From Hyphomonas sp. (GTDB taxonomy: Bacteria > Pseudomonadota > Alphaproteobacteria > Caulobacterales > Hyphomonadaceae), in NCBI GenBank assembly GCA_016124495.1, contig WGNP01000006.1, positions 62,001 through 126,000 on the forward strand: a stretch of DNA of 64,000 nucleotides, in the 5' to 3' direction. The position numbers were made by a program, and so were the translations under genes. The notes beneath the pieces are model-generated. The model searched no databases. It worked only from the letters and a program-made list of their open reading frames with translations, and was not told where the DNA came from. Shown here piece by piece: positions 15,117-57,557 of this stretch; the first letter of the stretch is position 1; each line of letters starts with the position of its first letter.

Positions 15117-15599
15117 TTATTCGACGAAGTTCGCCAGCAGTCACAGGTACGCGGCCTGGTCTGCGTTGGAATTTTCCGAGACCTGCCAGGAATTGAGCGG
15201 CCAACTGTCACCGTAAGTCACCACATACTCGCCCGGCTGACCCACCCGCGAGATGTCCTGCGCCCGGACATGATCGCCGGACAGCGCTTCCACCCGCGCC
15301 TCCAGATCCGCGTCCAGCGGGAGGGTACGGACCGGTTCCTCGGTCTTCGCACCCCGCACATAACAGGTCAGGCACGGCAAGGTGCCCAGGCGGTATCAAA
15401 GCCGGTCACGGGCTGGCTTATACGGACGATCTTCGGGTCATCCGGGCGCTAGCTGTACTGGTCCAGCACGGTCGGCGGGGGCGGGGACCGCTTCCGCCAG
15501 GCGGGGCGCCGGCTCTGCAGGTTTAACGTCTTTCAGGGCCCTGCGAGCGGCCGCACCGGTCAACCCGAGCGCCTGCCGGAAGGCCGACCGCCCTGTCAC
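15117..15599 (-). pseudogene. Broken gene co-linear with KAS III-like gene
   Basis: A GTG at 15599 overlaps the stop of the upstream synthase gene (GTGA). The frame starting there (VTGRSAFRQALGLTG...) has normal G/C-ending codons to about 15460, then loses codon bias. A segment in another frame (DDPKIVRISQPVTGFDTAW, about 15445-15390) has the bias, then the first frame resumes (LGTLPCLTCYVRG...) to 15117. In-frame TGA codons occur at 15438, 15396 and 15141. After the last one the frame continues as LLANFVE before TAA. At least two frameshifts and one true nonsense change explain this. No family recognised. Confidence 0.65.
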
Positions 15600-16717
15600 C
15601 CGGTGCGCTCGACAAACACCGTTCCTGCCGAATAGCCCGCACCGAACGAGCAGATCAGCCCGCGCTCACCCGGCTTGAAGTCGCCGGAATGCTTGTGGAA
15701 GGCGATGATCGATCCGGCCGAGGACGTGTTCGCATACGTGTCCAGCACGGTCGGGCTGTCATCCTCGGCCGCCTCGCGGCCGAGCACCTTGGCCGAGATC
15801 AGCCGGTTCATGTTGGCGTTCGCCTGGTGCAGCCACATCCGGCGCAGCCCTTCCGGTGTAAGACCCAGCTCGCCCATATGCTCGCCGATCATCTCGGCCA
15901 CCATCGGCACCACTTCCCGGAACACCTTGCGGCCTTCCTGCAGGAACAGCTTGTCCGGCGCGCCCACGCCGTCCGGTGCCGCACGGTTCAGGAATCCGAA
16001 ATTGTTGCGGATATTGTTCGAGAACTGCGTCTTCAGTTTCGTGCCGAGGATCTTCCAGTGCGCTGCCGGCGCCATCGCCTCGTTCTCGATCAGCACGGCG
16101 GTCGCTACATCGCCAAAGATGAAATGGCTGTCGCGGTCGGTGAAGTTGAGGTGGCCCGAACAGATTTCCGGATTAACCATCAGCACTGATTTCGCATGCC
16201 CCGCGCGCACGAAATCCGCCGCCGTCTGTATACCGAACGTCGCCGAAGAGCACGCCACGTTCATGTCGAAGGCAAAGCCCTCGATGCCGAGCGCCTGCTG
16301 CACTTCGATCGCCATCGCCGGATAGGCGCGCTGCATGTTGGACGCCGCGCAGATCACCGCGCCGATCTCTTCCGGTTTGCGCCCCGCCGCCTGCATCGCG
16401 TCCCGCGCCGCCAGCACCGCCATCTCCGCCAGCACCGAGATCTGCTCGTTCGGACGCTCGGGAATGCGCGGCGCCATAATGTCCGGATCTATCACGCCTG
16501 CCTTGTCGATCACGAAGCGGGACTTGATGCCGGAGGCCTTCTCAATGAACTCCACCGAGGAGTGCGTCTTCGGATCCATCAGGCCGGATTTGATCTCGGC
16601 CTCGTTCTCGCGGTTCCAGATGTCGGCCCAGGCATTGTAGCTGGCTACCAGCTCTGCATTGGAAATCGAATGGGGCGGGGTCCAGAGGCCGGTGGCGGAT
16701 ATCACGGGGTTGGTCAA
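15596..16717 (-). CDS. Beta-ketoacyl-ACP synthase III-like (FabH-like) enzyme
   Basis: A 373-residue thiolase-fold condensing enzyme with the catalytic Cys in NVACSSATFG (about residue 145), His in WLHQANANMN (about 300) and Asn in YANTSSAG (about 333). It is longer than housekeeping FabH (about 320 residues), with an N-terminal insertion (residues 20-60), like FabH paralogues in secondary lipid pathways. The start is a TTG at 16717, backed by an AAGGGAGAAG site 5-6 bases upstream; no nearby ATG fits. Its co-linear downstream partner is broken, so the pathway may no longer run. Confidence 0.85.
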   Translation of the reverse strand: MTNPVISATGLWTPPHSISNAELVASYNAWADIWNRENEAEIKSGLMDPKTHSSVEFIEKASGIKSRFVIDKAGVIDPDIMAPRIPERPNEQISVLAEMAVLAARDAMQAAGRKPEEIGAVICAASNMQRAYPAMAIEVQQALGIEGFAFDMNVACSSATFGIQTAADFVRAGHAKSVLMVNPEICSGHLNFTDRDSHFIFGDVATAVLIENEAMAPAAHWKILGTKLKTQFSNNIRNNFGFLNRAAPDGVGAPDKLFLQEGRKVFREVVPMVAEMIGEHMGELGLTPEGLRRMWLHQANANMNRLISAKVLGREAAEDDSPTVLDTYANTSSAGSIIAFHKHSGDFKPGERGLICSFGAGYSAGTVFVERTG

Positions 16718-16831
16718 GATGCTTCTCCCTTCGCGCGCTGCACCAGGCGGTCTCGCGCTGTCTTGGTGACTTGTCTGGGAACACCCTCTAGCGCGCGTTC
16801 GTCTCGCGGCCAAGAAGCACTCGCCGCAGCG

Positions 16832-17085
16832 TCAGTGCGCCCGTTTCGGCAAGCCATAGGCCTGGTGCAGCGCCTCGCGCTCCTCGCGGGCCAGCGCCGC
16901 TTCGCGCTGCTCTTCCAGCTGCCGGCGCTCGGCATCACCGGCCGCCGTCAGGACTTCGGTCTGGCAGGTCCCGCGCTTCTCCGGTTCGGCAATGCTCGCG
17001 CAATCTGCGAGGGCCGCCGCGTCCGCCTTGTCCTGCCAGGTCTGGCAACCTGTCAGCGCCGTAAGGGCAACCAGCCGCGCCTCAT
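16832..17085 (-). pseudogene. Small lipoprotein gene with N-terminal frameshift
   Basis: An ATG at 17085 overlaps the stop of the upstream lipoprotein gene (ATGA), but its frame ends after ten codons. A different frame with strong codon bias encodes LVALTALTGC (a lipobox) and then about 70 charged residues to the TGA at 16832. One lost base near 17070-17080 would restore MRR-LVALTALTGC. The mature part has two cysteines spaced C-X11-C, as in the neighbour, so the two are likely paralogues. The C-terminal half is a helix rich in E, R and A. Confidence 0.6.
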
Positions 17086-17291
17086 CTGGGCGGCTTGCGC
17101 TGGGCTTCGCGCTTCACCGACAGCGCCACATCGGCGACTACATCCTTCATACAAGCGTCGCGCTCGGCCTGTGTGGCCTCGCCCGCGCAAGCCTCCACCG
17201 GATTGGCATACGCTGGCGGCGGCGCGCTCGACCGGCAGGCGCCGGCAGACGCCGCAAGCCCGATCGCGGCAAGCATCATCATAGTCTTCAT
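17082..17291 (-). CDS. Small CX11C lipoprotein (69 aa)
   Basis: A 69-residue protein with a signal segment (MKTMMMLAAIGLAASAGAC); the lipobox AGAC is weak. The mature part has a C-X11-C pair (EACAGEATQAERDACM) and a basic tail. It overlaps tag upstream and a frameshifted paralogue downstream by ATGA motifs. Function unknown. The cysteine pair suggests a small disulfide hairpin in the periplasm. Confidence 0.6.
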   Translation of the reverse strand: MKTMMMLAAIGLAASAGACRSSAPPPAYANPVEACAGEATQAERDACMKDVVADVALSVKREAQRKPPR

Positions 17292-17872
17292 CTGGTCTTC
17301 CTCACCTCCCTGTGCCGCGGACAGCTTAGCTCATGGTCATTGACCATGCCAACTGCCTGCGCCCATGCGTAGACGATCGTCGGGCCGACAAACCTGAAGC
17401 CCCGCTTTTTCAGGTCCTTCGACATTGCCGCCGACCATTCGGTGAAGGTCGGCGCCTGCCGGAAGTTCTCCCATTGGCCGTGGACCGTCTTGCCGCCCAC
17501 CCAGTCCCAGCAATACTCGGAAAAATCCTCTCCGGAGTCCCTCATCGCGAGGTAGACCTGCGCATTGCCGATCACCGCGTCGATCTTCTTCGGGCTGCGG
17601 ATGATGCCGGGGTTCTCCATCGCCTTCGCCGCCCGTTTCGGTGTCCAGCGCGCCAGCCGCTCGGGATCAAACTGGTCGAACTCTTCCCGGATCGCTTCGC
17701 GCTTCCTCAGGATCGTGATCCAGCTCAGGCCCGCTTGCATCCCGTCCAGCTGCAGTTTCTCCCACAGCGCCCGCGGGTCACGCTCCGGCACGCCCCACTC
17801 GGTATCATGATAATCGCGGTAAAGCCGGTCGCTCACCGGCGCCCAGCCGCAATACAGCGTCTCTTCACTCAT
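17288..17872 (-). CDS. tag: DNA-3-methyladenine glycosylase I
   Basis: A 194-residue protein with the Tag family N terminus YCGWAPVSDRLYRDYHDTEWG (zinc-binding Cys and aromatic pocket), the ITILRKREAIREEF helix-hairpin region (about 53) and a C-terminal HELSCPRH with zinc ligands (about 181). It excises 3-methyladenine from alkylated DNA. It overlaps ygfZ by 8 bases and the small lipoprotein by 4, forming a minus-strand run. Confidence 0.93.
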   Translation of the reverse strand: MSEETLYCGWAPVSDRLYRDYHDTEWGVPERDPRALWEKLQLDGMQAGLSWITILRKREAIREEFDQFDPERLARWTPKRAAKAMENPGIIRSPKKIDAVIGNAQVYLAMRDSGEDFSEYCWDWVGGKTVHGQWENFRQAPTFTEWSAAMSKDLKKRGFRFVGPTIVYAWAQAVGMVNDHELSCPRHREVRKTR

Positions 17873-18674
17873 CGGCCGCCTCGGTCAGCGCCTTCAGTTC
17901 CGCGGCCAGCCAGGGCGCCTGGTCAATCTCCGCCGGCGCGCCGCCCACTGTCACGGGCTCGCCTGCCTGACCCGCTTTCGCGAACCGGTCTGTCCGCAGC
18001 AGCGCGAGACCGTCTCCCTCCACCGCACTCGTCACCGTCCCCAGCAGGCTCTCGCCAGCGCGCACCTCCGCGCCCGGCGCCAGTCCGGTGCCGCGCGCCC
18101 GTACCGTCCGTTTACGTATCAACGCCTTGCGCTTCATCCGGCTTGCCACTTCCTGGCCGACGAAACAGCCCTTCTTGTAATCGATGCCGCCCATCAGATC
18201 CATGTTTATGTCGGTCGGGAACACCTCTGCCGTGCGGTAGTCGCGCCCCCATTCCGGCACGCCCGCCGCAATCGCCAGTGCGTCCCAGCCGGGCAGGGGC
18301 TCCGCCGCCTCGCTCGCCGGAACAATCGCCCGCCGCGGCAAGACCGCCCCGCGCGGATCGGGCGCGCCCGCGGGGCCCGCCGCAGACACCAGCCCCTCGT
18401 CCCGCTCGATCTCCACCGCCGAGCGCAGCCGGAACATTTTCAGCCGTTTCAAAAGGTCCTCCGCCGCTTCCGCATGCACATCGATCTGCACGCCCTCTGC
18501 CGTCCGGTGTGCAATATAGTCCGCAATGATCTTGCCCTGCGGCGTCAGCAGCGCGCCATACCGCGCCTCGCCCTGCGCCCAGTCTGCCACCGTATGCGTC
18601 ACCGTCCGCTCGAGCAAAGCCAGCGTGTCAGGACCGGAAAGGACGAGAATGGAACGATTGGGAAGGCGATGCAT
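17865..18674 (-). CDS. ygfZ: Tetrahydrofolate-binding protein YgfZ (Fe-S maintenance)
   Basis: The 269-residue GcvT-like protein contains the YgfZ signature KGCFVGQEVASRM (about residue 165) with its conserved cysteine. YgfZ binds folate and helps build or repair certain iron-sulfur enzymes such as MiaB. It is slightly shorter than E. coli YgfZ, usual for alphaproteobacteria. It heads the tag-lipoprotein run; the region upstream (18675-19052) contains only gene remnants. Confidence 0.9.
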   Translation of the reverse strand: MHRLPNRSILVLSGPDTLALLERTVTHTVADWAQGEARYGALLTPQGKIIADYIAHRTAEGVQIDVHAEAAEDLLKRLKMFRLRSAVEIERDEGLVSAAGPAGAPDPRGAVLPRRAIVPASEAAEPLPGWDALAIAAGVPEWGRDYRTAEVFPTDINMDLMGGIDYKKGCFVGQEVASRMKRKALIRKRTVRARGTGLAPGAEVRAGESLLGTVTSAVEGDGLALLRTDRFAKAGQAGEPVTVGGAPAEIDQAPWLAAELKALTEAADE

Positions 18675-18708
18675 CGAACCATTCTAGGCCTTCAGCCGCC
18701 CGCCGTCA

Positions 18709-18813
18709 TCACGCCTTTGCGCCGGGCATCGCCGCCGCCAGTGCGCTCTTCAGCAGCGGGCCGGACAGGAACGCCGCCGTGCCCCAGGCGAGCGCAATCT
18801 CCGGCGAAGCAGG
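18709..18813 (-). pseudogene. C-terminal remnant of an unknown (membrane?) protein
   Basis: About 34 codons with very strong G/C third-position bias end in a TGA at 18709: SPEIALAWGTAAFLSGPLLK and a short Ala-rich tail. Codon bias is lost upstream of 18813. This looks like the 3' end of a longer gene whose front has been deleted. An intact 62-residue gene using the upstream ATG is less likely because its first half lacks codon bias. Confidence 0.4.
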
Positions 18814-18825
18814 AAGGGGCGCTGG

Positions 18826-18936
18826 CCTCACCCCACGACCGTGCGCGCCAGCTTCATCATGCGGGACGGCGACATCACCCGCAAGGGAGCCGGCCAACCC
18901 GTCCGCGTCAACGAAACGCCGGAGCCTGTGGGCTAA
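18826..18936 (+). pseudogene. C-terminal remnant of an amidohydrolase (dihydroorotase-like)
   Basis: A 36-codon segment reads PHPTTVRASFIMRDGDITRK and continues to a PVRVNETPEPVG tail and TAA at 18934. This pattern (TVRASF-MRDGDI-G-G-PVR) is the usual end of amidohydrolases of the dihydroorotase/hydantoinase type. Nothing upstream encodes the rest. With the minus-strand remnant 12 bases away it marks a deletion junction in the 378-base gap between ygfZ and the M20 gene. Confidence 0.5.
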
Positions 18937-19052
18937 TACGGCCTTGCAGGGGGCTTCGCCGCGACAGGAGTTGCCCTGCCTGGAGATTCCGTCCTAGGCT
19001 GACCCCCTGCCAATTCGGGGCGCTCGCCCGCCCACACACCTGAAGGACCCCC

Positions 19053-20474
19053 ATGCGCTTCACCTCCGGCCTTTTTCTGTCCGCCGCGCTGCTGACCGCT
19101 GCCCCCCTGGCCATCGCTGAAGAGCGCACGGCCTTCGAACTGCAGGCGCGCGAGATCTATCAGACCGTCGTCGAAATCCGCTCGGCCAAAGGCCAGGGGA
19201 ACATCCCCGTCCTGGTTGACTATCTCGTCCGTGAGCTGAAGGCTGGTGGTTTTGCCGACGCCGACATCGAGGTGACGGATTACGAGATAGAGGGCGAACT
19301 CGTGCAGGGCCTGATGGTCTGGTACCGCGCCGAGGGTACGCCGAAGCAGAAGCCGATCGTTCTGCTCGCCCACATGGATGTGGTCGATGCGCTGCCGGAC
19401 ACCTGGACGCGCTATCCCTTCGAGTTGATCGAGGAGGACGGCTATTTCTTCGGGCGCGGTACTGCCGACAACAAGTACGGCGTTACCAGCCTCGTCGCGA
19501 CCTTCCTGCGTCTCAAGGCCGAAGGCTTCAAGCCGGACCGCGATCTGGTCATTATCCTTTCGGGTGACGAAGAAACCGGCATGATCTCCACCCGTGCCCA
19601 GGCGAAGTATACGGACGAAAAGATCAAGCCGGCCTATGTGCTCAATGCCGACGCCGGCGGCCTGTCACTTGATGAGAATGGCAAGCCGCTGCTCTACGGG
19701 GTGCAAGGTGCCGAGAAGACCTATGCCACGTTCGAGCTGACCGTCTCCAATCCCGGCGGCCATTCTTCGACGCCGCGGGTGGACAACGCCATCTACGAAC
19801 TCGCCGACGCGCTGAAGAGGATCGAGGCCTACAAGTTCCCGGTCATGCACAGCCCGCTGACGCTCGCCTCTTTCACGTCGGCCGGCGCGCAGACACCCGG
19901 TCCGCTGGGGGAGGCCATGCTGGCTTTCGCCAAGAACCCGGCCGACGAAGCGGCGATCGGCGCGCTGCGTGCCAACCCGGAAACGGTCGGCTCGACCGGT
20001 ACAACCTGCATCGCCACGATGCTGCGGGCTGGCCACGCCGAGAATGCGTTGCCGCAGCGCGCGACCGCGACGATCAACTGCCGCATCTTCCCGGGCATCA
20101 GCATCGCCGCCACCGAGCAGACCCTGAAGGAGGTTGTTGGCAATGACGGCGTCGCATTCAAGCTGATCTCCGACCTCGTGGAGAGTCCGGAATCGAATCT
20201 GCCGGAAGAGGTCATGGTCGCCATTTCCAAAGCGCTCGCCGCGCGCGGCCTCGAAGGCCTGCCGATCCTGCCGCACATGTCGTCCGGCGGTACCGACGGC
20301 ATGTTCTATCGCAATCTCGGCTATGACACGCTGGGCATCAATGGCAGCGGCGCCAAGCCGAACGACACCTTTGCCCACGGCCTCAACGAACGCCTCGCAG
20401 TGGACGCATTCTATGGCGGCCTCGATCACTGGTACATCGTCCTCAAGGACCTCGCCGGCGCCGTGCAGCGCTGA
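19053..20474 (+). CDS. Secreted M20 family metallopeptidase
   Basis: A 473-residue protein with a signal peptide (cleavage after AIA, about residue 22). M20 zinc-site motifs are present: LLAHMDVVDA (about 107), GRGTADNKYG (about 135), SGDEETGM (about 170, catalytic Glu) and LNADAGG (about 198). The dimerisation lid follows, then a late HGLNER histidine (about 445). It likely acts as a periplasmic carboxypeptidase or dipeptidase. It is followed after 27 bases by the channel gene. Confidence 0.92.
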   Translation: MRFTSGLFLSAALLTAAPLAIAEERTAFELQAREIYQTVVEIRSAKGQGNIPVLVDYLVRELKAGGFADADIEVTDYEIEGELVQGLMVWYRAEGTPKQKPIVLLAHMDVVDALPDTWTRYPFELIEEDGYFFGRGTADNKYGVTSLVATFLRLKAEGFKPDRDLVIILSGDEETGMISTRAQAKYTDEKIKPAYVLNADAGGLSLDENGKPLLYGVQGAEKTYATFELTVSNPGGHSSTPRVDNAIYELADALKRIEAYKFPVMHSPLTLASFTSAGAQTPGPLGEAMLAFAKNPADEAAIGALRANPETVGSTGTTCIATMLRAGHAENALPQRATATINCRIFPGISIAATEQTLKEVVGNDGVAFKLISDLVESPESNLPEEVMVAISKALAARGLEGLPILPHMSSGGTDGMFYRNLGYDTLGINGSGAKPNDTFAHGLNERLAVDAFYGGLDHWYIVLKDLAGAVQR

Positions 20475-20501
20475 GGCGAACCGGTGCAGGGAGAGGGAGG
20501 C

Positions 20502-21302
20502 GTGACCGACAAGGCCGAAAAGCCGATGGGCCTGAGGCGTACGCTGATCTGGCTCTACGAAGGTGTTGGCCAATGGCCGGTCACTTTCCGCTGGGGCGTC
20601 CTTATCTTTGACGTGGCGACGATCAGCTATTTCCTGGTTTCGCCCTTCCTGGGCACGCCGGGCGAGCATTTCTGGCTTGACTATGTGATCGGCACGATCA
20701 TTGCGTTGGACCTCGCCGCGCGCTTCTACATAGCCCCGACCAAGCGGCGCTTTTTCACACGGTTCATGAATATTGCAGACGCGATTGTCGTCATCTCGAT
20801 GCTCGCGCCGTTCTTCTCGCAGAACTACGCCTTCCTCCGGATCATCCGGGCCTTGAGGATTGCCCGGGCGTTCAGTTTCCTCCGCGATGACAGTCCGATG
20901 TCGAGCTACCTGCGCCTTCACCGCATCGTCATCGAACGCGCGATCAACGTGGTCGTCTTCCTCTTCATCATGTCGGCCATGGTCTATGCCGACCAGGTGA
21001 ACCGGGTCGGCTCCGACGTGAAAAACTATCTCGACGCTTTCTATTTCACCGTCACCAGCCTGACGACCACCGGTTATGGCGACATCACGCTCGTCGGCTG
21101 GACCGGCCGTGTCCTCCCGATCATTATCATGCTGCTCGGCGTCACGCTCTTTCTGCGCCTCCTGCGCGCCCTCGTCACGCCGACCGACAAGGCTGAGGTC
21201 GAGTGCACCAATTGCGGCCTGAAGCGGCATGACCGCGACGCGGTCCACTGCAAGCATTGCGGCCAGGTCGTCTATGTCGAGAATGAAGGCTTTGACCACT
21301 GA
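20502..21302 (+). CDS. Voltage-gated-type K+ channel with C-terminal zinc ribbon
   Basis: The 266-residue protein has six membrane segments: S1-S4 (about 25-130) with an arginine-rich S4 (RIIRALRIARAFSFLR) and a pore module with the K+ filter TTTGYGD (about 188). The cytoplasmic tail is a CTNCGLKRHDRDAVHCKHCG zinc ribbon (about 232-251), in place of an RCK or cyclic-nucleotide domain. The GTG at 20502 is chosen because of the strong GGGAGAGGGAGG site just upstream; a GTG at 20484 would add six residues. The zinc ribbon may sense metal or redox state, or drive assembly. Confidence 0.85.
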   Translation: MTDKAEKPMGLRRTLIWLYEGVGQWPVTFRWGVLIFDVATISYFLVSPFLGTPGEHFWLDYVIGTIIALDLAARFYIAPTKRRFFTRFMNIADAIVVISMLAPFFSQNYAFLRIIRALRIARAFSFLRDDSPMSSYLRLHRIVIERAINVVVFLFIMSAMVYADQVNRVGSDVKNYLDAFYFTVTSLTTTGYGDITLVGWTGRVLPIIIMLLGVTLFLRLLRALVTPTDKAEVECTNCGLKRHDRDAVHCKHCGQVVYVENEGFDH

Positions 21303-21312
21303 AGCTGTAGGT

Positions 21313-21351
21313 TTGACGCCCCGAGGGCCGGGGAGTATGATAAAGTCATAC
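21313..21351 (+). promoter_or_regulatory. parDE promoter with overlapping operator palindrome
   Basis: TTGACG (21313-21318) is separated by 17 bases from TATGAT (21336-21341), a good sigma-70-type promoter. The perfect inverted repeat GTATGA-TAAAG-TCATAC (21335-21351) covers the -10. This is the expected site for autorepression by the ribbon-helix-helix antitoxin encoded 18 bases downstream. Confidence 0.75.
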
Positions 21352-21368
21352 CACTGAAAGAGGCCGCC

Positions 21369-28253: not shown

Positions 28254-28758
28254 GGAGCCCTCCATAAGCGGTGTAGCCCCCAAGGGCTAACATGAGGCGG
28301 AACAAGGCGATAGCGGTTATCCAGCCCGCAAATGGAGGCCGCACTTGCGATTCGCAACCGGCCTGCGCATATACCCCTCGGAGGCAGGCGGCGGACGGGT
28401 CGCTCGCCAATCGGGTCAGGCGGGGAACCGAGCAGCCCTAACGAGCTTCAGCCCGGGTCGTTTGCCTGTCTCCACCCTGACGCCCGACATTGCAGGTTCA
28501 CGATTCGGGGCGCCGGGGGTCCGCAGACCCCACCGCTTGTGGCCTCCAGGGTGTCCAGGTTGGGGAATTGGACGCCGAACCGGAAAAATCCGGTTTCCAC
28601 AGCCCCGGTTTCTTGTGTGAATTGAGCGGGCCTGATCGCCCTCCGGAATACCCGCTGCATGGGCGATCCGCGCGCGCCGTTAACCTTTGATTCAGGAGTT
28701 TTCCACGCTTCTTTGACGGTTTTGCGAATTGAACCGTTGACCCGAAATTAACCTTCAG

Positions 28759-40188: not shown

Positions 40189-40903
40189 CTACCGGCAGGT
40201 GCAGGCATCCCCCATGTCGAAATGAAAAGGGTCGGCATCGGCCGCGTTGTAGTCCGGCCCGAGGGTGACCGAGAAAATCCGGCAGGCGCCCTTGTGAACG
40301 CGCGTCATGAATGCGCCATCCTTGCCGCCATTGGCCCAATGGGTTTTGATATTAATCAGGCGGCCGTCCCCGAGGCGTAAGCCCGAGATGTCGACCGCAT
40401 TTGCAGTGGCGTGTTCGGATTTGCGTCCCGTGCCGGGGATGTTGCGGCAGGAAGAGCTGCCATAGGTTTCGATCCGGGCGTTCGGTGAGCCCAGGATTTC
40501 GGTGGCTGCCGGGCGGGTGACGTGCCGCTCTGACATGTAGAGGAGGCGGTCTGCCAGCAGGTCAAGCTGAGGGTGGCCGAATAGGGGGTCAGCGAGCGGC
40601 CGAGGGTGAGGCGTCATATTTCCTGCAGGCCCCGCCGCGCGGGGACCCCTCCAGCGGGGTGTAAAACACGCCGGTCGCATTGAACGCGCTGAAAGAGGCA
40701 TCGGGATGGCGCTCCAACTGGGTCACCTTGAAGTGGCATGCGAGGCCCGGCTTGTGGTTGAGATCCAGCGGCACGAACGGTTGTGCCGGGGCGGCGCAAA
40801 CCGCAAAAACACGCCCAGGACCAGCGCCGATGGCAGGACCAGCAGCGTGAAAAAAGCCGACGGGGGCTTTTTGCAGCGTTACCCTTTTCCTTTCCTTAAC
40901 CAA
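40189..40903 (-). pseudogene. Extensin-like C-domain protein, multiply frameshifted
   Basis: Pieces of one protein lie in order but in different frames: VKERKRVTLQK, then the membrane helix SAFFTLLVLPSALVLGVFLR, then AQPFVPLDLNHKPGLACHFKV, then LTPYSATLSLTCWQTAS, and last SERHVTRPAATEILG with SCRNIPGTGRKSEHATANAVDISG and a C-terminal FHFDMGDACTC. The last part is the extensin-like C domain (peptidase-fold, SEH-HA-VDI). At least four single-base losses are needed, mostly in C or A runs. The N-terminal TTG at 40903 is tentative. Confidence 0.75.
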
Positions 40904-41001
40904 ACCCCGGTTTCTGTTAACCTGTGCTGGCCCCCGGGCCGGAATCGACCTTAAAGCGGGGGCACGCACAGAATGTGGCACGAACTCCAGAAGAGACCAG
41001 A

Positions 41002-43239
41002 ATGGTGAAGCGCGGACCCTTGCCGCCGCCCGAAGAGCGGATCATCAACGAGACGATGAGCGAGGCGCTGTCGAAGCGCTACCTCGCCTATGCGCTGTCC
41101 ACGATCACGGCCCGGGCCTTGCCGGATGTGCGCGATGGCCTGAAGCCGGTTCAGCGGCGCATCCTGTATGGCATGCGCGTGCTCAGGCTCGACCCCGAGG
41201 GCGGCTACCGCAAGTGCGCCAAGATCGTCGGCGATGTGATGGGTAACTACCACCCGCACGGCGACAGCTCGATCTATGACACGCTGGTGCGCCTCGCGCA
41301 GGATTTCAGCGTGCGCTACCCGCTGGTCGACGGGCAGGGCAACTTCGGCAACATCGACGGCGATAGCCCCGCAGCCTACCGCTATACCGAAGCGCGGATG
41401 ACGCGCGCGGCCGAGCTGCTGATGGAAGGCCTCGACGAGAACGCGGTCGATTTCCGCCCGAACTATGCCGAGAATGACGAGGAGCCTGTGGTCCTGCCAG
41501 CCGGCTTTCCGGCGCTGCTGGCGAACGGCGCGACTGGCATTGCCGTCGGCATGGCGACCTCCATCCCGCCGCACAATGTGGCCGAGGTAATAGATGCGGC
41601 ACGGCTGCTGATCGAGAAGCCGAAGGCGACCACCGAAGAGCTGATGGAATTTGTTCAGGGCCCGGACTTTCCGACGGGCGGCGTGATCGTCGAGGAACGC
41701 GCCGCGATGCTACAGGCCTACGAAACAGGCCGGGGCAGCTTCCGTATGCGGGCGCGCTGGCATGTCGAGGACACCGGGCGCGGGACCTACCAGATTATCG
41801 TCACCGAGATACCCTATCAGGTTCAGAAGTCTCGCCTGCTGGAGCGCCTTTCTGAACTGCTGGAGGCTAAGAAGGTTCCCCTTCTGGAAGACGTGCGCGA
41901 CGAGAGCGCCGAGGACGTGCGCCTAGTGCTGGTGCCGCGCGCCAAAACGGTTGAGGCGGACGTGCTGATGGAGAGCCTGTTCAAGCTGTGCGATCTGGAA
42001 ACGCGCTTCAGCCTGAACATGAACGTTCTGCATAAGGGCGCGCCTCAGGTGATGGGCCTGAAGCAGGTGCTGCAGGCTTATCTGGATCACCGCCGCGAAG
42101 TCGTCGTGCGCCGCGCGGAGTTCCGGCTCGACCGAATCGAGAAGCGGTTGCACCTGCTGGATGGCTACCTCGTGGCCTTCCTCAACATCGACGAAGTGAT
42201 CCGGATCATCCGCACCGAGGACGAGCCGAAGCCCGTCCTGATGAAACGGTTCAAGCTGACCGATCTGCAGGCCGAGGCTATCCTCAACCTCCGCCTGCGT
42301 GCGCTGCGTAAGCTTGAGGAAATGGAAATCCGCGGCGAACATGCAAAGCTCAAGGAAGAGCGCGAGGAGATCATCTCGCTGCTCGGCTCGACGCGCAAGC
42401 AGTGGTCGAAGGTTTCGAAAGACCTTAAGGCGGCGCGCGACGAATTTGATCCGGGTACGGCGCTGGGAAAGCGCCGTGCTACCTTCGAGGCGGCGCCAGA
42501 TGTGGACCTTGCCGCCGCGCTGGAGGCCTCGCGGCCGAAGGAGCCGGTGACTGTCGTGCTGTCTCAGCAGGGCTGGATCCGCGGCATGAAAGGGCATGGC
42601 ATCGAAGCCGATTCGATCAAGTTCAAGGAAGGTGATGGCCCGGCCTGGATGGAAGAGGTGATGACCACCGACCGGCTGGTCATCATGTCGTCCGACGGGC
42701 GCGCGTTCATCCTGGCGGCGGACAAGCTGCCCGGCGGTCGCGGCAATGGCGAGCCGATCCGTCTGTCGATCGAGCTTGAGGATAATGTGGACATCGTCGC
42801 GATGTTCAAGTTCGATGCCGAGTGCAAGCGCGTTATGGCATCAAGCTCCGGGTACGGATTTGTAATTCCGGAGACCGAACTGGAATCGAACCGCAAGGCG
42901 GGCAAGCAGGTGGTCAACACAGGCGAAGGACGGCTGCTGGTCTGCGCGCCTGTGGAAGGGGACATGATCGCGGTGGTCGGCACGAACCGGAAAATGCTGA
43001 TCTTCCCGCTCAAAGACCTGCCGGAAATGTCACGCGGCAAGGGCAACAAGCTGCAGACTTATAGTGGCAAGTCGGAACTCGCCGATCTCATCACCTTCGA
43101 CAAGCGCGACGGCCTGATCGTCATGACCGGCGGGCGCCACCGAGCCTTTGAGGAATGGAAAAGCTGGCGCGGCGCGCGGGCGCAGGCCGGCAAGGTCGTG
43201 CCCAAGGGCTTCCCCAAGGGCGGAACGTTCAGCGGCTGA
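41002..43239 (+). CDS. parC: DNA topoisomerase IV subunit A
   Basis: A 745-residue type IIA topoisomerase with [20 protein letters not shown] (about residue 35), [17 protein letters not shown] (about 76) and the active-site tyrosine in YRYTEARMT (about 130). The C-terminal beta-pinwheel (about 500-740) is the shorter ParC type, not the GyrA type. It unlinks daughter chromosomes. The ATG at 41002 follows a weak purine site; the upstream in-frame start at 40924 would add 26 unconserved residues. Confidence 0.93.
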
Positions 43240-43254: not shown

Positions 43255-43773
43255 ATGGCGCCGCTCGTCGTTCCGCATGATCCCGAATGGGCAGCGGCGT
43301 TCGTCGCCGGGGCGCGGGCACTGACCGGGGCTATGGGCGAGACCTGCACCGCGCTGCATCACATTGGCAGCACAGCCATTCCCGGGATCCTGGCCAAACC
43401 CATCATAGACATTCTGGGCGAAGTCAGCTCTTTCGAACTCCTGGACGGCGCGACCGGACGTATCGAATCGCTCGGCTACACTGCAATGGGCGAATTTGGC
43501 ATCGAAGGCCGCCGCTACTTCCGGAAGGACGATGCCGAGGGGCGGCGGACGCACCACTTGCATGTGTTCGAAGCCGCCTCGCTGCATATCGATCGCCATC
43601 TTGCCTTCCGGGACTACCTGTTGAGGCGTCCCGCAAAAGCTGCGGAATACTCTGCGCTGAAGGCAGCGCTGGTGGCGTCCGGTACTCCGTATCAGGACGG
43701 AAAGAATGCATTCGTCAAGGCGGCGGAGGCAGAGGCGATCAATTGGTGGAGGGGAGGCGCAGGTTGCACGTGA
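43255..43773 (+). CDS. GrpB family (UPF0157) protein
   Basis: A 172-residue protein with the GrpB hallmarks PHDPEWAAAF at the N terminus, LHHIGSTAIPGILAKPIIDIL (about residue 36) and HHLHVFEAASLHIDRHLAFRDYL (about 100). The fold is nucleotidyltransferase-like. Function unknown; often next to GNAT genes, as here. It lies 15 bases after parC. Confidence 0.9.
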   Translation: MAPLVVPHDPEWAAAFVAGARALTGAMGETCTALHHIGSTAIPGILAKPIIDILGEVSSFELLDGATGRIESLGYTAMGEFGIEGRRYFRKDDAEGRRTHHLHVFEAASLHIDRHLAFRDYLLRRPAKAAEYSALKAALVASGTPYQDGKNAFVKAAEAEAINWWRGGAGCT

Positions 43774-44320
43774 CGCGAAACACGAGACCGCCCGCCTGAT
43801 CCTCAGACAGCCTCTAGTGGCCGATTTTGAAGGCTGGTCGCTGATGGAGGCGGACGAATCCGTGAAAGCCAATACCAGCAGCGGTTACGACCAGTGCGAG
43901 AGCTGGAACCAGCTCCTGCCGGTCGCTGGCACAGGAAGATCACGGGATGGAGCGCGCTCTGTGCTATCGAGAAATCGATCGGCAGGTTCATCGGCCGCTT
44001 TGGTCCGTCGAAGCCTTTCTGTTGGCCGCCTATCGAAGCTGGCTGGATGCGGCGGCAGCAATTCCAGGGCGGGGAGTATGCACTGGAAGACGCCATCGCC
44101 GCGATGGACTTTGCGTTCCTTGAGCTTGGCAAAACGCGGTTGATCCATACGATCCGGCCGGCCAACACGGCGTCGCAAAAAGCTGGCGACGCGGCTTGGC
44201 TCGAAGAATCCCGGGCCGATAACCTTGCCGCCGCCTTATGGTGCGTTTCAAAATGATCAATGGTCGCAGAGGCTGGGCGAGTGGGATATGTGTTACGAGT
44301 GTCCGATTGGCCGCCCCTAA
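43764..44320 (+). pseudogene. GNAT acetyltransferase, at least three frameshifts
   Basis: A TTG at 43764 starts HVTRN out of frame with the next part ETARLILRQPLVADFEGW (about 43783-43920). ITGWSALCAIEKSIGRFIGR and YALEDAIAAMDFAFLELGKTRL follow in another frame (from about 43940), then RLGSKNPGPITLPPPYGAF in yet another to TAA at 44318. In order they give a normal RimJ/RimL-type GNAT of about 185 residues, including the dimer and acetyl-CoA-site helices. It overlaps the end of the sirtuin gene on the other strand. Confidence 0.78.
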
Positions 44321-45092: not shown

Positions 45093-45597
45093 CTAGCGGT
45101 ACATCCCATCTCGCAAATTGATGCCGTGTTCGACCCACATCTTCATCGCGCAGATCATCTGGCTCCAGCCCATGCCGTTGCCTTAGGAGGCCGCAAGGCC
45201 GCCGGGTGTCTGGCGCCAGCCTTCCTCGGCGATGGAGGCCGGCGTACGCCCGTCGCCGAGATCTTCGAAGCGCATGGTAGCGGTGGTCTTGTAAGCGGCG
45301 CTTGAGGTCTTCGCGGCTTCGCCCTCGGCAGGGCCGCCTACCTTCGCGTCCCATTGCAAGATGATTCGGCCGTTTTTCTCGGCTTCGATGTCCTGCATGA
45401 GGAAAGACGCCGGGAAAATCATGGAAATCCCACATTACGGCGGCGCCGGTTTCCAGCTGGTCTTTGGCGCCGCCGGTGGTGAAATAGCCGTAAAGCTTCC
45501 CGGGGTTCACAACCGCCTCGAAGACTTCATACGCGGCGCGGGCAGTGCGGCCGCTGACTTCGAATTTCAGGTCTATGGGATGTCTTCGTGCTTGCAT
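45093..45597 (-). pseudogene. SRPBCC (AHSA1-like) protein, frameshift plus stop
   Basis: The ATG at 45597 opens HPIDLKFEVSGRTARAAYEV and runs to WDFHDFPG near 45415, then shifts to another frame (MQDIEAEKNGRIILQWDAKV) until a TAA at 45183. After that codon the same frame continues GNGMGWSQMICAMKMWVEHG to a TAG at 45093, the normal family C terminus. The TAA probably replaces a Tyr codon. SRPBCC proteins of this type are usually paired with an ArsR regulator, which lies divergently next door. Confidence 0.78.
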
Positions 45598-51880: not shown

Positions 51881-51895
51881 GCCGCGCCTCCGGGC

Positions 51896-53005
51896 TTACT
51901 TGCCGAGCGCGCGGGCGGCGTAATAAGGCCCGTCAGAGACACCAGCCCAGCCGCGCATCAGTTTCAGCGAGGCTTCAAAGCTCTCATAGATCCGCTTCTC
52001 GATACCGTCCCTGCCGCTGGCGGCGCGCACGTCGAAAGCGGCTTCCGACATCCGCTTGACAACTTCATCCGGGAACGAACGAAGCTGCGTTCCGTGCTCA
52101 CGCACAAGCAGGTCAAGGTGCACGGAGTTCTGGTAGGTGAATTCGCCGAGCGACAGGTGGTTCACCGACTCGCACGCCGCTTTCAGGATCGCCTGTTCGC
52201 TGGGGATGAGGCTATCCCAGGCACCGCGGTTGATGCCGACGGCAAGGCTCGCGCCGGGTTCGTGGAAGCCCGGGCCGTAATAATAAGGTGCCTCGCGGTG
52301 AAAGCCGAGCGAATAGTCGTTCCAGGGTCCAACCCATTCGGTCGCATCAATCGCGCCCGTCTGCAGCGCCTGGTAAATCTCGCCGCCCGCCAGCGAGATC
52401 GAGGCGCCCCCCAGGGCACGCAGCACTTCGCCGCCCTGGCCTGGGATGCGCATCTTGAGGCCCACGAAATCGTTCAGCGAGGTCATCTCGCGCCGGAACC
52501 AGCCGCCCATCTGGTGACCGGTATTGGCGCCCTGGATCGACTTGATGCCGAACTGGCCGGAGAGCTCATCCCACAGCGCCTGTCCGCCGCCATGGTCAAT
52601 CCAGCCCATGATCTCCTGCGCCGTCATGCCGAAAGGCACTGCGGTAAAGAACGGGAAGGCAGTCGACTTGGCGGTCCAGTAGTATTCCGCGCCGTGATAC
52701 ATGTCGGCCGAGCCGTTCGCCACCGCGTCGAAGCTCTCGAACGGCGGCACCAGTTCGCCGGCTGCGAACACCTTGATCTCCATCAGCCCGTCCGACATCT
52801 CGAACACGCGTTCGGACACCCGTTCGGCGGCGCGGCCAAGGCCGGGCAGGCCCTTCGGCCAGGTGGTCACCATGTTGAAGCGGCGCCGGCTGCGGCTGAT
52901 GGCCGGGCCGGAGAGCGCCGCACCGGATTTGGGATTAGCGAAGGTTGCCACGGCGCCTGCGAGCCCAAGGGCTCCTGCGCCGACGAGATTACGCCGGTTG
53001 ATCAT
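51896..53005 (-). CDS. TRAP transporter substrate-binding protein (DctP-like), Tat-exported
   Basis: The 369-residue periplasmic receptor begins with a twin-arginine signal (INRRNLVGAGALGLAGAVA). It has the DctP features MYHGAEYYWTAKSTAFPFF (about 105), the substrate-clamping Arg in LKMRIPGQGGEVL (about 183) and GEIYQALQTGAIDATEWVGPWND (about 209). WVGPWNDY fits the 2-oxo acid (TakP) subgroup, whose ligands are pyruvate or branched keto acids. The gene heads the minus-strand operon. Confidence 0.9.
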   Translation of the reverse strand: MINRRNLVGAGALGLAGAVATFANPKSGAALSGPAISRSRRRFNMVTTWPKGLPGLGRAAERVSERVFEMSDGLMEIKVFAAGELVPPFESFDAVANGSADMYHGAEYYWTAKSTAFPFFTAVPFGMTAQEIMGWIDHGGGQALWDELSGQFGIKSIQGANTGHQMGGWFRREMTSLNDFVGLKMRIPGQGGEVLRALGGASISLAGGEIYQALQTGAIDATEWVGPWNDYSLGFHREAPYYYGPGFHEPGASLAVGINRGAWDSLIPSEQAILKAACESVNHLSLGEFTYQNSVHLDLLVREHGTQLRSFPDEVVKRMSEAAFDVRAASGRDGIEKRIYESFEASLKLMRGWAGVSDGPYYAARALGK

Positions 53006-53061
53006 CGACTGGCCTCCCTATGCGCGCGTCCGGCCTCTGCCGGACCGGTCTCGCTTCGCGC

Positions 53062-53820
53062 CTACTCTTCGTCTCTCAAGGGCCGCCAGCGGTCGCCGTC
53101 AAGTACTTCCAGTGGTTTGTAGCGCCGCTTGTACGCCATCTTCGGGCTGCCTTTGACCCAGTAGCCGAGGTACACGTGCGGCAGGCCGAGGTCTTGTGCA
53201 TGGCGGATATGATCCAGTATCACGTGGTGGCCGAGGCTGCGCGCTTCCTGTTCGGGATCAAAGAAGGTGTAGACCATCGAGAAACCGTCTCGCAGCACAT
53301 CAGTGATCGAGCAGGCCACCAGCGGCGCCGACTCTTCGGGTCCGTCGCGGTATTCGAAGATAAGGCTCTGAACGGGGCTGCCGCCGACCATCGCGACATA
53401 GTCACGGTAGGTCATCTCAGACATGCCGCCATTGTCATGGCGCGTCTTCACATAGGCTTTCAGCAACCGGAACTGCTCCCGCGTCGCCTGCGAGACAACC
53501 GGGCGCCGCACCAGCCCTGTATTTTTCGCGATCACCTTGCGGTCATTGCGGCTCGTCTCGTGTTCGCGTGTCGGCACTCGCACGCTGCGGCATGCATTGC
53601 AGCGCAGGCAAGCGGGCCGATAGGCAATCGACTGGCTACGGCGGAAACCGGACTGGCTGAGCACATTATGCACGACGTCCGCTTCCGGGATCGCGAGGTT
53701 TGTGAAGGCTTTCCGTTCCTTGCGGTCAGGCAAATAGGGGCAGGGGCTGGGGTTCGTGACGTAGAACCTCAGCGACCGTTCCAGGCCAGCCGGCAGCAGA
53801 TGGGAATCCGTGAACTTCAT
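53062..53820 (-). CDS. bpt: Aspartate/glutamate leucyltransferase (Bpt)
   Basis: A 252-residue GNAT-fold aminoacyl transferase with PCPYLPDRKERKAF (about residue 26), the Cys-rich CLRCNACRSVRVP (about 72) and YLGYWVKGSPKMAYKRRYKPLEVL (about 216), all typical of bacterial Ate1-like Bpt. It adds Leu to N-terminal Asp/Glu and marks proteins for ClpAP decay. Length is normal. Confidence 0.93.
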   Translation of the reverse strand: MKFTDSHLLPAGLERSLRFYVTNPSPCPYLPDRKERKAFTNLAIPEADVVHNVLSQSGFRRSQSIAYRPACLRCNACRSVRVPTREHETSRNDRKVIAKNTGLVRRPVVSQATREQFRLLKAYVKTRHDNGGMSEMTYRDYVAMVGGSPVQSLIFEYRDGPEESAPLVACSITDVLRDGFSMVYTFFDPEQEARSLGHHVILDHIRHAQDLGLPHVYLGYWVKGSPKMAYKRRYKPLEVLDGDRWRPLRDEE

Positions 53821-53920
53821 TTCGACGAACGATACACTTCACCGGGCCAGCGCCAAGGGGCCAAAACCGGGCAGGTGCGAAGCAGCGGCAAAAAAGACAC
53901 ACCGACGTGGCCGGAAAGCC

Positions 53921-54607
53921 TCACGGTTGGGCGCTCAGATGAACTTTCAGGCTGATCCGGCGGTTTTGTGCGAGGTGGGGCTGGCCGGAGTCGAGCGGCT
54001 GTGTATCCGCAAGGCCTGTCACCGCCGCAAAACGTGCCGGCGCCACGCCGAACGCCTCGAACAGGCGGCGGGCTTCACTGGCGCGGTCCGACGAGAGATC
54101 CCAGTTCGAATAGCCGGTCGTGGTCAGGCTGAAGGCATCGGTATGGCCTTCGATTGACAGCGGGTTGGCGAGCGGAGCGAGCGTTGCGGCCGTTGCAGCC
54201 ACCAGTGCCCGGCCTTCCGGGGTCAGGGCGCCACTGGCACTCTGGAACAGGGGCCGGCCCGCCGTGTCCACCAGATCAAGGCGAACCCCATCCGGCTCCA
54301 TGGAAAGGATAACGCTTTCGCCGGCGGCCTTAAGGGTCTCGGAAAGTTGCAGAAGGCTGAACAGGTCTGCGGCTTCCGAAGCCACCGGAGGGGCTGCGGT
54401 TGCGAGCGCCAGTTCCCTGGTCTTGAATTCGGCGGCAATGGCGGCGCGGGCATTGGGCGAGACGCCGCTGACCAGCCACATCAACAGGAAGAAGGCCATC
54501 AGGGCGGTCAGGAAGTCGGCGTACGCCATCTTCCACGTGCCCAATTTGCGGGCCGGTGGTGCAGGCATTCTGCCTGCGGGTTGCCGGTGGGTCGTGGCGT
54601 AAGCCAT
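53921..54607 (-). CDS. MotB-like protein (stator/OmpA-type)
   Basis: The 228-residue protein has a MotB-style N terminus with one membrane segment, MAYADFLTALMAFFLLMWLV, carrying the proton-site Asp, and a C-terminal OmpA/MotB peptidoglycan domain (IEGHTDAFS, NWDLSSDRASEARRLFEAFG, NRRISLKV). It is shorter than usual MotB. No motA lies beside it, so it must partner a distant MotA or have a stator-like role elsewhere. The ATG at 54607 is preferred to 54640. Confidence 0.82.
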   Translation of the reverse strand: MAYATTHRQPAGRMPAPPARKLGTWKMAYADFLTALMAFFLLMWLVSGVSPNARAAIAAEFKTRELALATAAPPVASEAADLFSLLQLSETLKAAGESVILSMEPDGVRLDLVDTAGRPLFQSASGALTPEGRALVAATAATLAPLANPLSIEGHTDAFSLTTTGYSNWDLSSDRASEARRLFEAFGVAPARFAAVTGLADTQPLDSGQPHLAQNRRISLKVHLSAQP

Positions 54608-54742
54608 CGTCCTGGTTCCTGTCCTTCTGACGGAGATCATCGTCTATCAGGTCATGGTGAAACCCACGCTTCGGCGAGGGATGGGATTTCGATGAAATTC
54701 CATCTATCTGCATCCCCACACCTATCCCAAAAGGAGACACTC

Positions 54743-55600
54743 ATGGCGCGCACAGCATTTCTTGGCCTCGGGGTCATGGGCTTCCACATGGCCGGGCACC
54801 TGGCGCGCGCTGGTCACCAGGTGAGCGTCTGGAACCGTACCGCCGCGAAGTCCGCCGCCTGGACCGGCGTGCACCGCGGTGAGGCGGCGAAGGATCCCGC
54901 CTCGGCCGTCTTCGGCGCCGAGTTCGTCCTGATGTGCCTAGGCGATGACCCGGACGTGCGCGCCGTCTTCGAGGCCTTTGAGCCGAGCCTCGGCGCAGGC
55001 ATGACCGTCATCGACCACACCACCGCCTCCGCCGGGCTCGCCCGCGAACTCGCCGCACGCTGCAAGGCGAAGGGCGCGCACTTCATCGATGCCCCGGTCT
55101 CGGGAGGTGAGGCTGGCGCGATCAATGGCAAACTCACCATCATGTGCGGCGGCGAGCCAGCCGCCTTCGCCGGCGCCGAGCCGGTGATGAACGCCTTCGC
55201 CCGGAAGATCACACGGATCGGCGAGGCGGGCTCCGGCCAACTCGCTAAATCCGTCAACCAGATCTGTATCGCGGGAATCGTGCAGGGACTCGCCGAGGGT
55301 CTGCACTTTGCGGACAAGGCCGGGCTCGATCCCGCCAAGGTGATCGAGGCGATCTCTGGCGGCGCGGCGCAAAGCTGGCAGATGGAAAACCGCTGGAAAA
55401 CGATGACCGAAGGCAAGTTCGATTTCGGCTTCGCAGTCGACTGGATGCGCAAGGATCTGCGCATCACGCTGGACGCGGCGGAGGAAGTTGGCGCGACCCT
55501 TCCGGTCACCTCAATCGTGGACGCCTACTACGGCGAAGTACAGGCGATGGGCGGCAATCGCTGGGACACGTCGAGCCTGATTGCCCGCTTGAAGCCGTAA
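54743..55600 (+). CDS. 3-hydroxyisobutyrate dehydrogenase-family NAD(P) oxidoreductase
   Basis: A 285-residue beta-hydroxyacid dehydrogenase: N-terminal FLGLGVMGFHMAGHLARAGH (cofactor loop), DAPVSGGEAGAINGKLTIMCGG (about residue 117) and the catalytic Lys in GSGQLAKSVNQICIAG (about 171). The substrate could be 3-hydroxyisobutyrate, tartronate semialdehyde or a succinic semialdehyde-like compound. An AAGGAG site precedes the ATG. It pairs with the GST-like gene downstream. Confidence 0.9.
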   Translation: MARTAFLGLGVMGFHMAGHLARAGHQVSVWNRTAAKSAAWTGVHRGEAAKDPASAVFGAEFVLMCLGDDPDVRAVFEAFEPSLGAGMTVIDHTTASAGLARELAARCKAKGAHFIDAPVSGGEAGAINGKLTIMCGGEPAAFAGAEPVMNAFARKITRIGEAGSGQLAKSVNQICIAGIVQGLAEGLHFADKAGLDPAKVIEAISGGAAQSWQMENRWKTMTEGKFDFGFAVDWMRKDLRITLDAAEEVGATLPVTSIVDAYYGEVQAMGGNRWDTSSLIARLKP

Positions 55601-55633
55601 CGCCCCGGTGTTGGGCTGCTAAAGGAGCGTGCC

Positions 55634-56764
55634 TTGGAAACTGCACCCGGACGTCACGGTCATCCGAAAACCCGTGACAGGGAAGAGGCGCCGTATCGCC
55701 TGCATGGGCTCAAGCTTTCATACTTTACCGGCAAGCTCGAAGCCTATTTCCGGGTCAAGGGCGTTGCCTTTGAATTTGTGGACATGGACACTGCCGACTT
55801 CCGGCGCTGCGCCCGCGAAACAGGCATTGCCCAGATGCCGCAGGTTCAAGCGCCGGATGGCAGATGGCTCACCGACACAACAGCGATCATCGCGGAGTTT
55901 GAAACAGCTTTCGTGGGGCCTGTTTTGTCTCCGAAGGATCCGTTGACCCGCTTCTTCAGCCTGTTGCTGGAAGATTTGTTCGACGAGTGGTTGTGGCGCC
56001 CGGCGCTGTATTATCGCTGGGCCTTCGTTGAAGACCGCACACTGATGAGTTCACAGATAGCTCGGACGATGTTGCGCGACGTTCCACTGCCTTTCAGCGT
56101 GCGCCGCCGCCTGATCCTCGCGCGCCAGCGCCGCCAATACCTCGGACAAGACGGGATTACGCGCCGAACCGCGCCCGCGGTTGAAGCGCTCTACCGCGAC
56201 ACGCTGCAGATGCTGGAAGCAATTTTCCGGGTACGGCCCTTCCTGATGGGAGGGCGGCCCGTAGAGGCTGATTTCGGCCTGATGGGGCCGTTCCTGCGCC
56301 ACTTCTCACATGATCCGACACCGGCTGCGATCCTGCGCGAGACCGCGCCGAACACGCAGGCCTGGGTTGCACGTGTCTGGGCCACGACACCTTGCGATGC
56401 CGAGGCAGCGCTGCTGCCCGAAAGAGTACCCGATGATCTTCAGGGACTGATCACGATGACCGCGCGCGATTACCTGCCATACCTGGCCGCCAACGCATTG
56501 GCCGTAAGTCAGTCCGATGCGACCGTGCAGTACACGCAGGGCGGAACGGACTGGTCCGTACCCGCGGCGCCCTACCGCGCAGCATGCCTCGATGCGCTGA
56601 AAGCCGCCTACGTCGCCTTGCCGGACGAGGTGCGCACGGCCGCAGGCCTCAAACTGGGCCCCGGCGCCGTGGCAATTCTGTCGGCTCCAAAGACTACATT
56701 TGTGCCGGATGTGCGGCGTCCCCTCGGACGCCTGTGGCAAAACGCACGCACTGCTAGACGTTGA
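55634..56764 (+). CDS. Glutathione S-transferase-like protein with long C-terminal region
   Basis: A 376-residue protein: an N-terminal thioredoxin-fold domain (LSYFTGKLEAYFRVKGVAFEF about 28-48; IAQMPQVQAPDGRWLTDTTAI, cis-Pro) and a C-terminal helical domain (about 105-250) with GGRPVEADFGLMGPF. About 100 extra residues follow. It starts with TTG at 55634 and is supported by an AAGGAG site seven bases upstream. It may use glutathione but residues at the thiol site are not obvious. Confidence 0.8.
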   Translation: METAPGRHGHPKTRDREEAPYRLHGLKLSYFTGKLEAYFRVKGVAFEFVDMDTADFRRCARETGIAQMPQVQAPDGRWLTDTTAIIAEFETAFVGPVLSPKDPLTRFFSLLLEDLFDEWLWRPALYYRWAFVEDRTLMSSQIARTMLRDVPLPFSVRRRLILARQRRQYLGQDGITRRTAPAVEALYRDTLQMLEAIFRVRPFLMGGRPVEADFGLMGPFLRHFSHDPTPAAILRETAPNTQAWVARVWATTPCDAEAALLPERVPDDLQGLITMTARDYLPYLAANALAVSQSDATVQYTQGGTDWSVPAAPYRAACLDALKAAYVALPDEVRTAAGLKLGPGAVAILSAPKTTFVPDVRRPLGRLWQNARTARR

Positions 56765-56809
56765 TAGGGTACGCTGCGCAGTCTGTACCTCATCGGAGGG
56801 GGGAACCGA

Positions 56810-57080
56810 TGGCGAGGTCTGAACCTAAGACAAAAGTGACGGCGGTAATGCCGAAGGATTTCATTGCCGCTTTGGAGGACGCCGAACTCCTGCTTAAGCG
56901 GATGACGAAGGTCACCGGCCTCAAGCCAAAAGTGGGGGCCGAGCATCATCGGCTTTGGCCGTTCCGCCTGCACGTACGACAGCGGACATTCCGGCGAGGC
57001 CTTGCAGGGTGGGCTTCAGTCCGCGCAAGCACAAGACCGGCCAGAGTTGTCTCGATCCCGGCAGCCTCGAAAAGATCTAA
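56810..57080 (+). pseudogene. DUF1801-like gene, frameshifted and shortened
   Basis: The ATG at 56810 (after GGAGGGGGGAACC) opens SEPKTKVTAVMPKDFIAAL and KRMTKVTGLKPKV, then loses frame near 56938. GPSIIGFGRSACTYDSGHSG continues in a second frame, and RKHKTGQSCLDPGSLEKI in a third to TAA at 57078. In order these give the DUF1801 pattern, but with internal deletion and no normal C-terminal end. Confidence 0.7.
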
Positions 57081-57557
57081 CTGAATGTATGCGAACAGAT
57101 CGTCACGGACGGCGTCGCCTATATGCGCATACACTTCGGCAAGCTCGACGTTCCGCATGCGGACTTCGCCCGTCTGCGCTGCGGCGAGGCCGATTTCCCG
57201 TTTCAGGGCGGCCCGGAAAACCTGCGCGCCTTAATATGCCAGCCGGACGAAGACGGCCGCTATCCGGGCAGCGGCGGTGACAGCTTCATGCTGATCGTCA
57301 AATGGCCGAAAGACGGCAGCGCGCCGCAAACGCAGACCATTTACCCCTTCGCCGCCGCCATGAGGCGCCCCGGCTCGCTGCACTATTCAGATCAGCCGGA
57401 GATATTCCCGAAGGAGGGATTCAAGGAGAGTCCGCAGCCGGTTTACAAGCAGGTCGGGATTCCTCCCGCCGGGGATGCACTGCTCATGTTGGATTTGCGG
57501 GATATATCCCGCCCTACGCGCCCAGCTTCTCCGCCGCGCGCTCAGCAAAGTACGTGA
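57081..57557 (+). pseudogene. C-terminal remnant of a penicillin-acylase-family protein
   Basis: The frame from 57081 reads FGKLDVPHADFARLRCGEAD, FQGGPENLRA, GGDSFMLIVKW, IYPFAAAM and LHYSDQPEIFP. These match the end of secreted Ntn-type acylases (LPMGGGPDTLRA, GDTYVLFVEW, HYADQ). The signal peptide, catalytic Ser and most of the protein are absent. The final codons run antisense over the end of hemB. Confidence 0.65.

Follow-up and report, generated by a model that had tools for sequence, protein, structure and literature searches.

In bacterial genomes, frameshifts, stop codons and deletions build up in genes that have become dispensable; deletions outnumber insertions, and essential genes are kept. 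Most worked examples of such pseudogene decay come from symbionts or host-restricted germs. Streamlined genomes, in which free-living cells lose accessory genes, retain few remnants. Pseudogene formation and deletional bias in bacteria have been reviewed (PMC5447742). Early-stage symbiont decay is represented by Sodalis, reported to have almost 50% pseudogenes (PMC7067036). Here we describe gene decay in a 64-kb stretch of a Hyphomonas genome (hereafter the window: positions 62001–126000 of the 226-kb contig C19 of assembly G000, which comprises 3.27 Mb in 25 contigs and is rated 93.66% complete). About ten accessory genes in the window are broken, and very probably they record a lineage-specific, deletion-biased loss of patchily distributed, dispensable genes that is ordinary in kind.

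With bacterial pseudogene formation in general, G000 shares the lesion types, the excess of deletions and the retention of essential genes. It differs from the symbiont and host-restricted examples in belonging to a presumed free-living marine genus and in the undiminished selection on its retained genes. As in early-stage symbiont genomes such as Sodalis, many accessory-gene remnants are still recognizable; unlike in Sodalis, they make up ~7–8% of conserved genes on one contig and 1/143 in three areas elsewhere, and the proteins scanned revealed no mobile element. As in streamlining, accessory genes are lost in presumably free-living cells, but G000 is not small, its G+C content is not low and its remnants have not been cleared. 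What makes the case of interest is how dense the decay is (13–15 of ~180 conserved genes across 226 kb) in a presumably free-living marine alphaproteobacterium whose retained genes show no raised ratio of nonsynonymous to synonymous substitution rates (dN/dS), whose mutS and mutL are not broken and whose genome is not small. This density, together with a possible regional focus, is the mildly surprising part. Among the titles listed by literature searches on Hyphomonas pseudogenes or gene loss and on deletional bias in free-living bacteria, none concerns Hyphomonas pseudogene load.

Loci were tested by tblastn with the open frames of relatives and by DNA alignment, and families were assigned by Pfam. 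Among 40 relatives searched, 24 are members of the same genus. Syntenic DNA identity to the window is ~94% in G011, a separately assembled sister of G000, ~91% in G024, and mostly 75–87% in G022, G014, G018 and G010; among named genomes, a parC-based search placed Hyphomonas sp. S2_81 nearest (94% protein identity), with H. chukchiensis at 80%. An earlier note on this DNA had reported about ten broken accessory loci. Comparison with close relatives confirmed decay at nine, which are clear remnants with open syntenic homologues in sister genomes; the tenth (16832–17085) is probable only. In window coordinates the loci are:

15117..15599, − strand: remnant of a GH9 endoglucanase gene (628 amino acids in G024), both ends retained, ~1.4 kb lost relative to G024, stops in the remainder
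16832..17085, − strand: small lipoprotein-like open reading frame (ORF), probable remnant, 5′ end missing, ~81 codons open
18709..18822, − strand: tail of a BioY biotin transporter gene, last ~36 of 197 amino acids
18823..18936, + strand: tail of an amidohydrolase gene, last ~35 amino acids
39496..40106, − strand: glutathione S-transferase (GST) gene, one 1-base deletion near the start, 195 of 203 codons open in one frame
40189..40903, − strand: extensin-like protein gene (264 amino acids in G024), several frameshifts, open in G024, G014 and G010
43764..44320, + strand: GNAT acetyltransferase gene, frameshifts, also broken in G011 and G022, open in G024 and G014
45093..45597, − strand: AHSA1-family gene, start codon lost, premature stop and frameshift, open from the start codon in G024 and G010
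56810..57080, + strand: DUF1801 gene, frameshifts and internal deletions, open in G011, G022, G024, G014 and G018
57081..57557, + strand: end of a penicillin-amidase-family gene, last ~118 of 687 amino acids (687 in G014)

Four of the ten loci (GH9, BioY, amidohydrolase and penicillin-amidase) are leftovers of deletions of ~1.4–2.3 kb, not products of point mutation. The GH9 gene is open at the syntenic position in G024, G018 and G010. The BioY and amidohydrolase tails (18709–18936) were juxtaposed by a deletion that removed ~2.1 kb relative to G024 and ~1.5 kb relative to G011; no BioY match was found anywhere in the G000 assembly, and the amidohydrolase has stop-free matches of 444–486 amino acids in G011, G024, G018 and G010 and of 614 in G022. 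The penicillin-amidase-family gene has lost ~2.3 kb relative to G011, whose own copy carries two stops.

We compared C19 and three further areas of G000, C2 (around mutS), C9 (around dnaE) and C17 (around dnaE2), with their counterparts in relatives. Of the length differences of at least 150 bp in the aligned blocks, 29 are shortfalls of G000 relative to G024 and 15 the reverse. When a deletion was called only where G014 or G018 covers at least 35% of the segment, outgroup-supported deletions over the four areas numbered 15 in G000 and 2 in G024 (binomial p = 0.0023). Thirteen of those in G000 lie in C19, where they total 16.2 kb, and two in C2; C9 and C17 have none on either side. Four of five junctions inspected have overlapping flanking alignments (7, 9, 7 and 3 bases) and one has none; exact matches reach no more than 6 bases at the GH9 junction and 4 at the BioY junction. 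The overlaps of 3–9 bases suggest that the deletions probably arose by slippage or illegitimate recombination, though matches of a few bases may also occur by chance. The earlier attribution of the loss to point mutation is half right: it describes several loci with small lesions, but not the four reduced by kilobase deletions or the 15-to-2 imbalance in supported deletions.

Comparison with G011 separates older from younger lesions. G000 and G011 share two AHSA1 lesions, the missing start codon and the premature stop, and in the extensin-like gene both carry the same extra base close to the 5′ end; the AHSA1 frameshift is private to G000. Additional lesions private to G011 affect its extensin-like, GNAT, AHSA1, BioY and penicillin-amidase genes. 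The 1-base lesion in the GST gene, which is open in G011, G024, G022, G014, G018 and G010, is private to G000. Lesions common with the sister, private lesions and private deletions together form a small dated series of gene death.

Such lesions might instead have been created by base-call or assembly errors, as the earlier note had allowed, and G000 is indeed a draft in which neither rpoB nor dnaA, both present in relatives, has a match. Since relatives have both genes, the shortfall in completeness is probably, at least in part, a stretch of chromosome absent from the assembly, not gene loss. (rpoB is also without a match in G022, which like G000 is rated ~93% complete, and a missing stretch is the probable cause there too; of these two assemblies, the dnaA search covered G000.) Error is rejected for most loci because lesions in the AHSA1 and extensin-like genes are shared with a separately assembled genome, most of the other loci have been hit more than once or have lost kilobases of sequence, and frame changes are not in excess among intact genes. 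Intact C19 genes matched in more than one frame number 9/166 in G000, 8/173 in G024, 11/182 in G014 and 6/144 in G018, and those with any stop or frame change 21/166, 17/173, 23/182 and 21/144. In all nine G000 cases the extra frame comprises only the first 16–45 residues, where it is uncertain which start is used. One of the nine is GST, whose frameshift is real by alignment; C19:27065–28347, counted as intact, may also hold a real frameshift near its start. The 23 lesions of broken genes all fall within 4% of the matched codons, giving a log10 p of −31.7 under an even spread, a rough estimate because lesions define the broken class and because a false and a doubtful row (see below) contribute 2 of the 23. 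The assembly has no general indel problem, and error as the overall source of the frameshifts is very improbable. It stays a candidate for GST, whose lesion is a single private base; the ORF at 16832–17085 speaks neither way.

The density of broken genes was compared by a leave-one-out scan over G000, G024, G014 and G018, in which a gene was counted if two or more of the three remaining genomes had it open and called broken if no single frame held 80% of it, with a coding-potential filter applied. This filtered scan, run without G022, G011 and G010 and with edge genes excluded (2, 1, 2 and 0 in the order above), replaced an unfiltered one because several rows of the latter were antisense ORFs. 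In C19, 15/181 genes are broken in G000, compared with 2/175 in G024, 2/184 in G014 and 1/145 in G018. The corresponding fractions are 1/55, 0/54, 0/53 and 1/53 in C2, 0/73, 0/71, 0/69 and 0/70 in C9, and 0/15, 0/9, 1/16 and 0/9 in the poorly syntenic C17. Pooled over the four areas, G000 has 16/324 against 2/309, 3/322 and 2/277 (Fisher p = 0.0012, 0.0039 and 0.0028). One G000 row, C19:196949–197962, proved false, being antisense to an open 412-amino-acid gene that is itself broken in G024, and another, C19:180268–180616 (cold-shock protein, 70% in one frame), is doubtful. Without both, G000 has 13/179 in C19 (p = 0.0063, 0.0031 and 0.0042 against G024, G014 and G018) and 14/322 over all areas (p = 0.0039, 0.012 and 0.0088). 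The scan recovers four of the ten window loci, and the remaining loci rest on individual alignments; its rules score the GST and extensin-like genes as intact and skip genes not open in two of three relatives.

Several observations weigh against the reading as lineage-specific loss of dispensable genes. In the unfiltered scan, G022 (5/56) and G011 (4/37) are about equal to G000 (17/191), so the trait is not confined to G000; G024, G014 and G018 gave 6/183, 12/194 and 6/150. The fetched G011 stretches span ~28 of the 64 kb of the window. The broken C19 genes have dN/dS values against G000 of only 0.16–0.76 (median ~0.35, 14 rows); part of each branch predates inactivation, and the pooled value of 0.349 includes the false row. 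Among relatives, the same genes give pooled values of 0.147–0.251, and the sole broken C2 gene has 0.304 (38 codons) against 0.205–0.404. The density also depends on the area: within G000, 15/181 in C19 compares with 1/143 in the three other areas (Fisher p = 0.0013; 13/179 and p = 0.0043 without the two weak rows), so describing the whole genome as shedding genes may exaggerate what is a regional effect.

Such a regional effect could arise if deletions were locally frequent, or dispensable genes concentrated, in C19, so that decay clustered there. The broken fractions in C19 are higher in each conservation class (5/48, 7/43 and 3/90, against 1/22, 0/35 and 0/86 in the other G000 areas, weak rows included), and the supported deletions are distributed as 13 in C19, 2 in C2 and none in C9 or C17. 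Because the comparison areas were picked by anchor genes, not randomly, and cover 300 kb of 3.27 Mb, with C17 poorly comparable, the contrast is suggestive and no proof. In G024, G014 and G018, the C19 region is not enriched in broken genes. We regard a regional hotspot as possible but doubtful. A fuller version, in which deletion-biased decay in a free-living lineage under undiminished selection is focused on one region and not spread over the genome, this region acting as a local hotspot of gene death that began before the sister species split, is unlikely. If the regional focus held genome-wide it would present a testable local deletion hotspot; otherwise this is ordinary gene loss. Proximity to the replication origin was abandoned as a reading because the distance from the region to dnaA differs between genomes: ~0.3–0.4 Mb in G016, G019 and G004, against 1.7 Mb in G020.

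The retained genes show no visible relaxation of selection. For intact genes, dN/dS between G024 and G000 is 0.092 in C19 and 0.089, 0.068 and 0.094 in the other areas, and between G024 and G014 it is higher (0.139, 0.115, 0.091 and 0.111 in the four areas); all of these values are pairwise, not by branch. The earlier suggestion of relaxed selection can hold for the lost functions only, as dN/dS in retained genes (0.068–0.094) is not raised. A mutator phenotype, or decay through drift like that of a young symbiont or a host-restricted lineage, might seem to fit a contig on which ~7–8% of conserved genes are broken, several times the rate in three relatives. Against this, mutS and mutL are both open and above their family cut-offs, by which loss of mismatch repair was rejected as a cause; retained-gene dN/dS, albeit unpolarized by branch, is not raised; the other G000 areas have only 1/55, 0/73 and 0/15 broken genes; and no transposase was found among the scanned proteins. 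We consider such decay very unlikely. Streamlining, the earlier note's other proposal, would have selection for a smaller genome cause the loss, and the outgroup-decided deletions (15 in G000 against 2 in G024) lean that way, but the estimated full size of G000, ~3.5 Mb (3.27 Mb at 93.66%), is ordinary among the listed congeners (3.0–4.3 Mb), G+C is ~64%, and G000 carries segments absent from G024 at 15 places. Streamlining is highly improbable. With dN/dS not raised, mutS and mutL open and the genome not small, both streamlining and drift-driven meltdown are unsupported.

The preferred reading, lineage-specific and deletion-biased loss of dispensable genes, suggests the following course. The AHSA1 and extensin-like genes were hit before G000 and G011 split, as their shared lesions show. 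After the split, each line gained its own frameshifts and stops. Kilobase deletions took out whole stretches. Because dN/dS is low and selection on the retained genes still strong, the loss may reflect functions that no longer paid and not a general weakening of selection.

The kinds of genes lost are in keeping with dispensability of this sort. Of 31 genus genomes (with G000, which has neither, counted), 16 have BioY and 14 have GH9; both are thus patchily distributed. Broken genes are slightly less conserved among relatives than intact ones (p = 0.027) and were originally no shorter (Mann–Whitney p = 1.0), both comparisons including the two weak rows; the description of the accessory genes as short does not apply to the original genes. 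Beyond the window, the broken C19 genes include homologues of a serine carboxypeptidase, LigB dioxygenase, pirin, a two-domain ABC ATPase, a Rieske/ferric-reductase protein and DUF3291, and no pathway shared among the broken C19 genes is visible. A second cluster of broken genes lies outside the window at G000:C19:173126–203308, with deletions of ~2.2, 2.2 and 1.1 kb; its members are an ABC ATPase, a thioredoxin-like gene (by eye), LigB, pirin, DUF2306 and a Rieske/ferric reductase. Within the window, the ORF at 16832–17085 is called only a probable remnant, the weakest of the ten, because its family varies strongly among relatives.

The essential genes named in the earlier note are spared, and the picture of ongoing gene loss that leaves them intact is supported: ileS, nrdA, rsh, rnc, era, recO, parC and hemB are whole and were correctly named. 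Such sparing is what purifying selection yields anyway. One of these genes lies between decayed ones:

40924..43239, + strand: parC, intact

No transposase was found among the window ORFs scanned (40 by Pfam and 10 by NCBIfam, not all ORFs). The earlier statement that insertion sequences are absent holds for these scanned ORFs; insertion sequences often sit in assembly gaps.

Some further features of the window were observed. No tRNA was found in it, and a small signal recognition particle (SRP) RNA (Rfam RF00169) lies at 28382–28474 on the + strand. Positions 15860–16709 are 95% identical to G024, whereas flanking aligned DNA is ~86–87% identical; this patch may be a recombined segment, although it stops at the end of a G024 contig and an assembly cause is possible. 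An ORF of 376 amino acids at 55634–56764, with no Pfam match at the cut-off used, has no aligning DNA in the fetched G024, G014 and G018 stretches; its DNA aligns in G001 and G010, and it is full length in G011 and G022.

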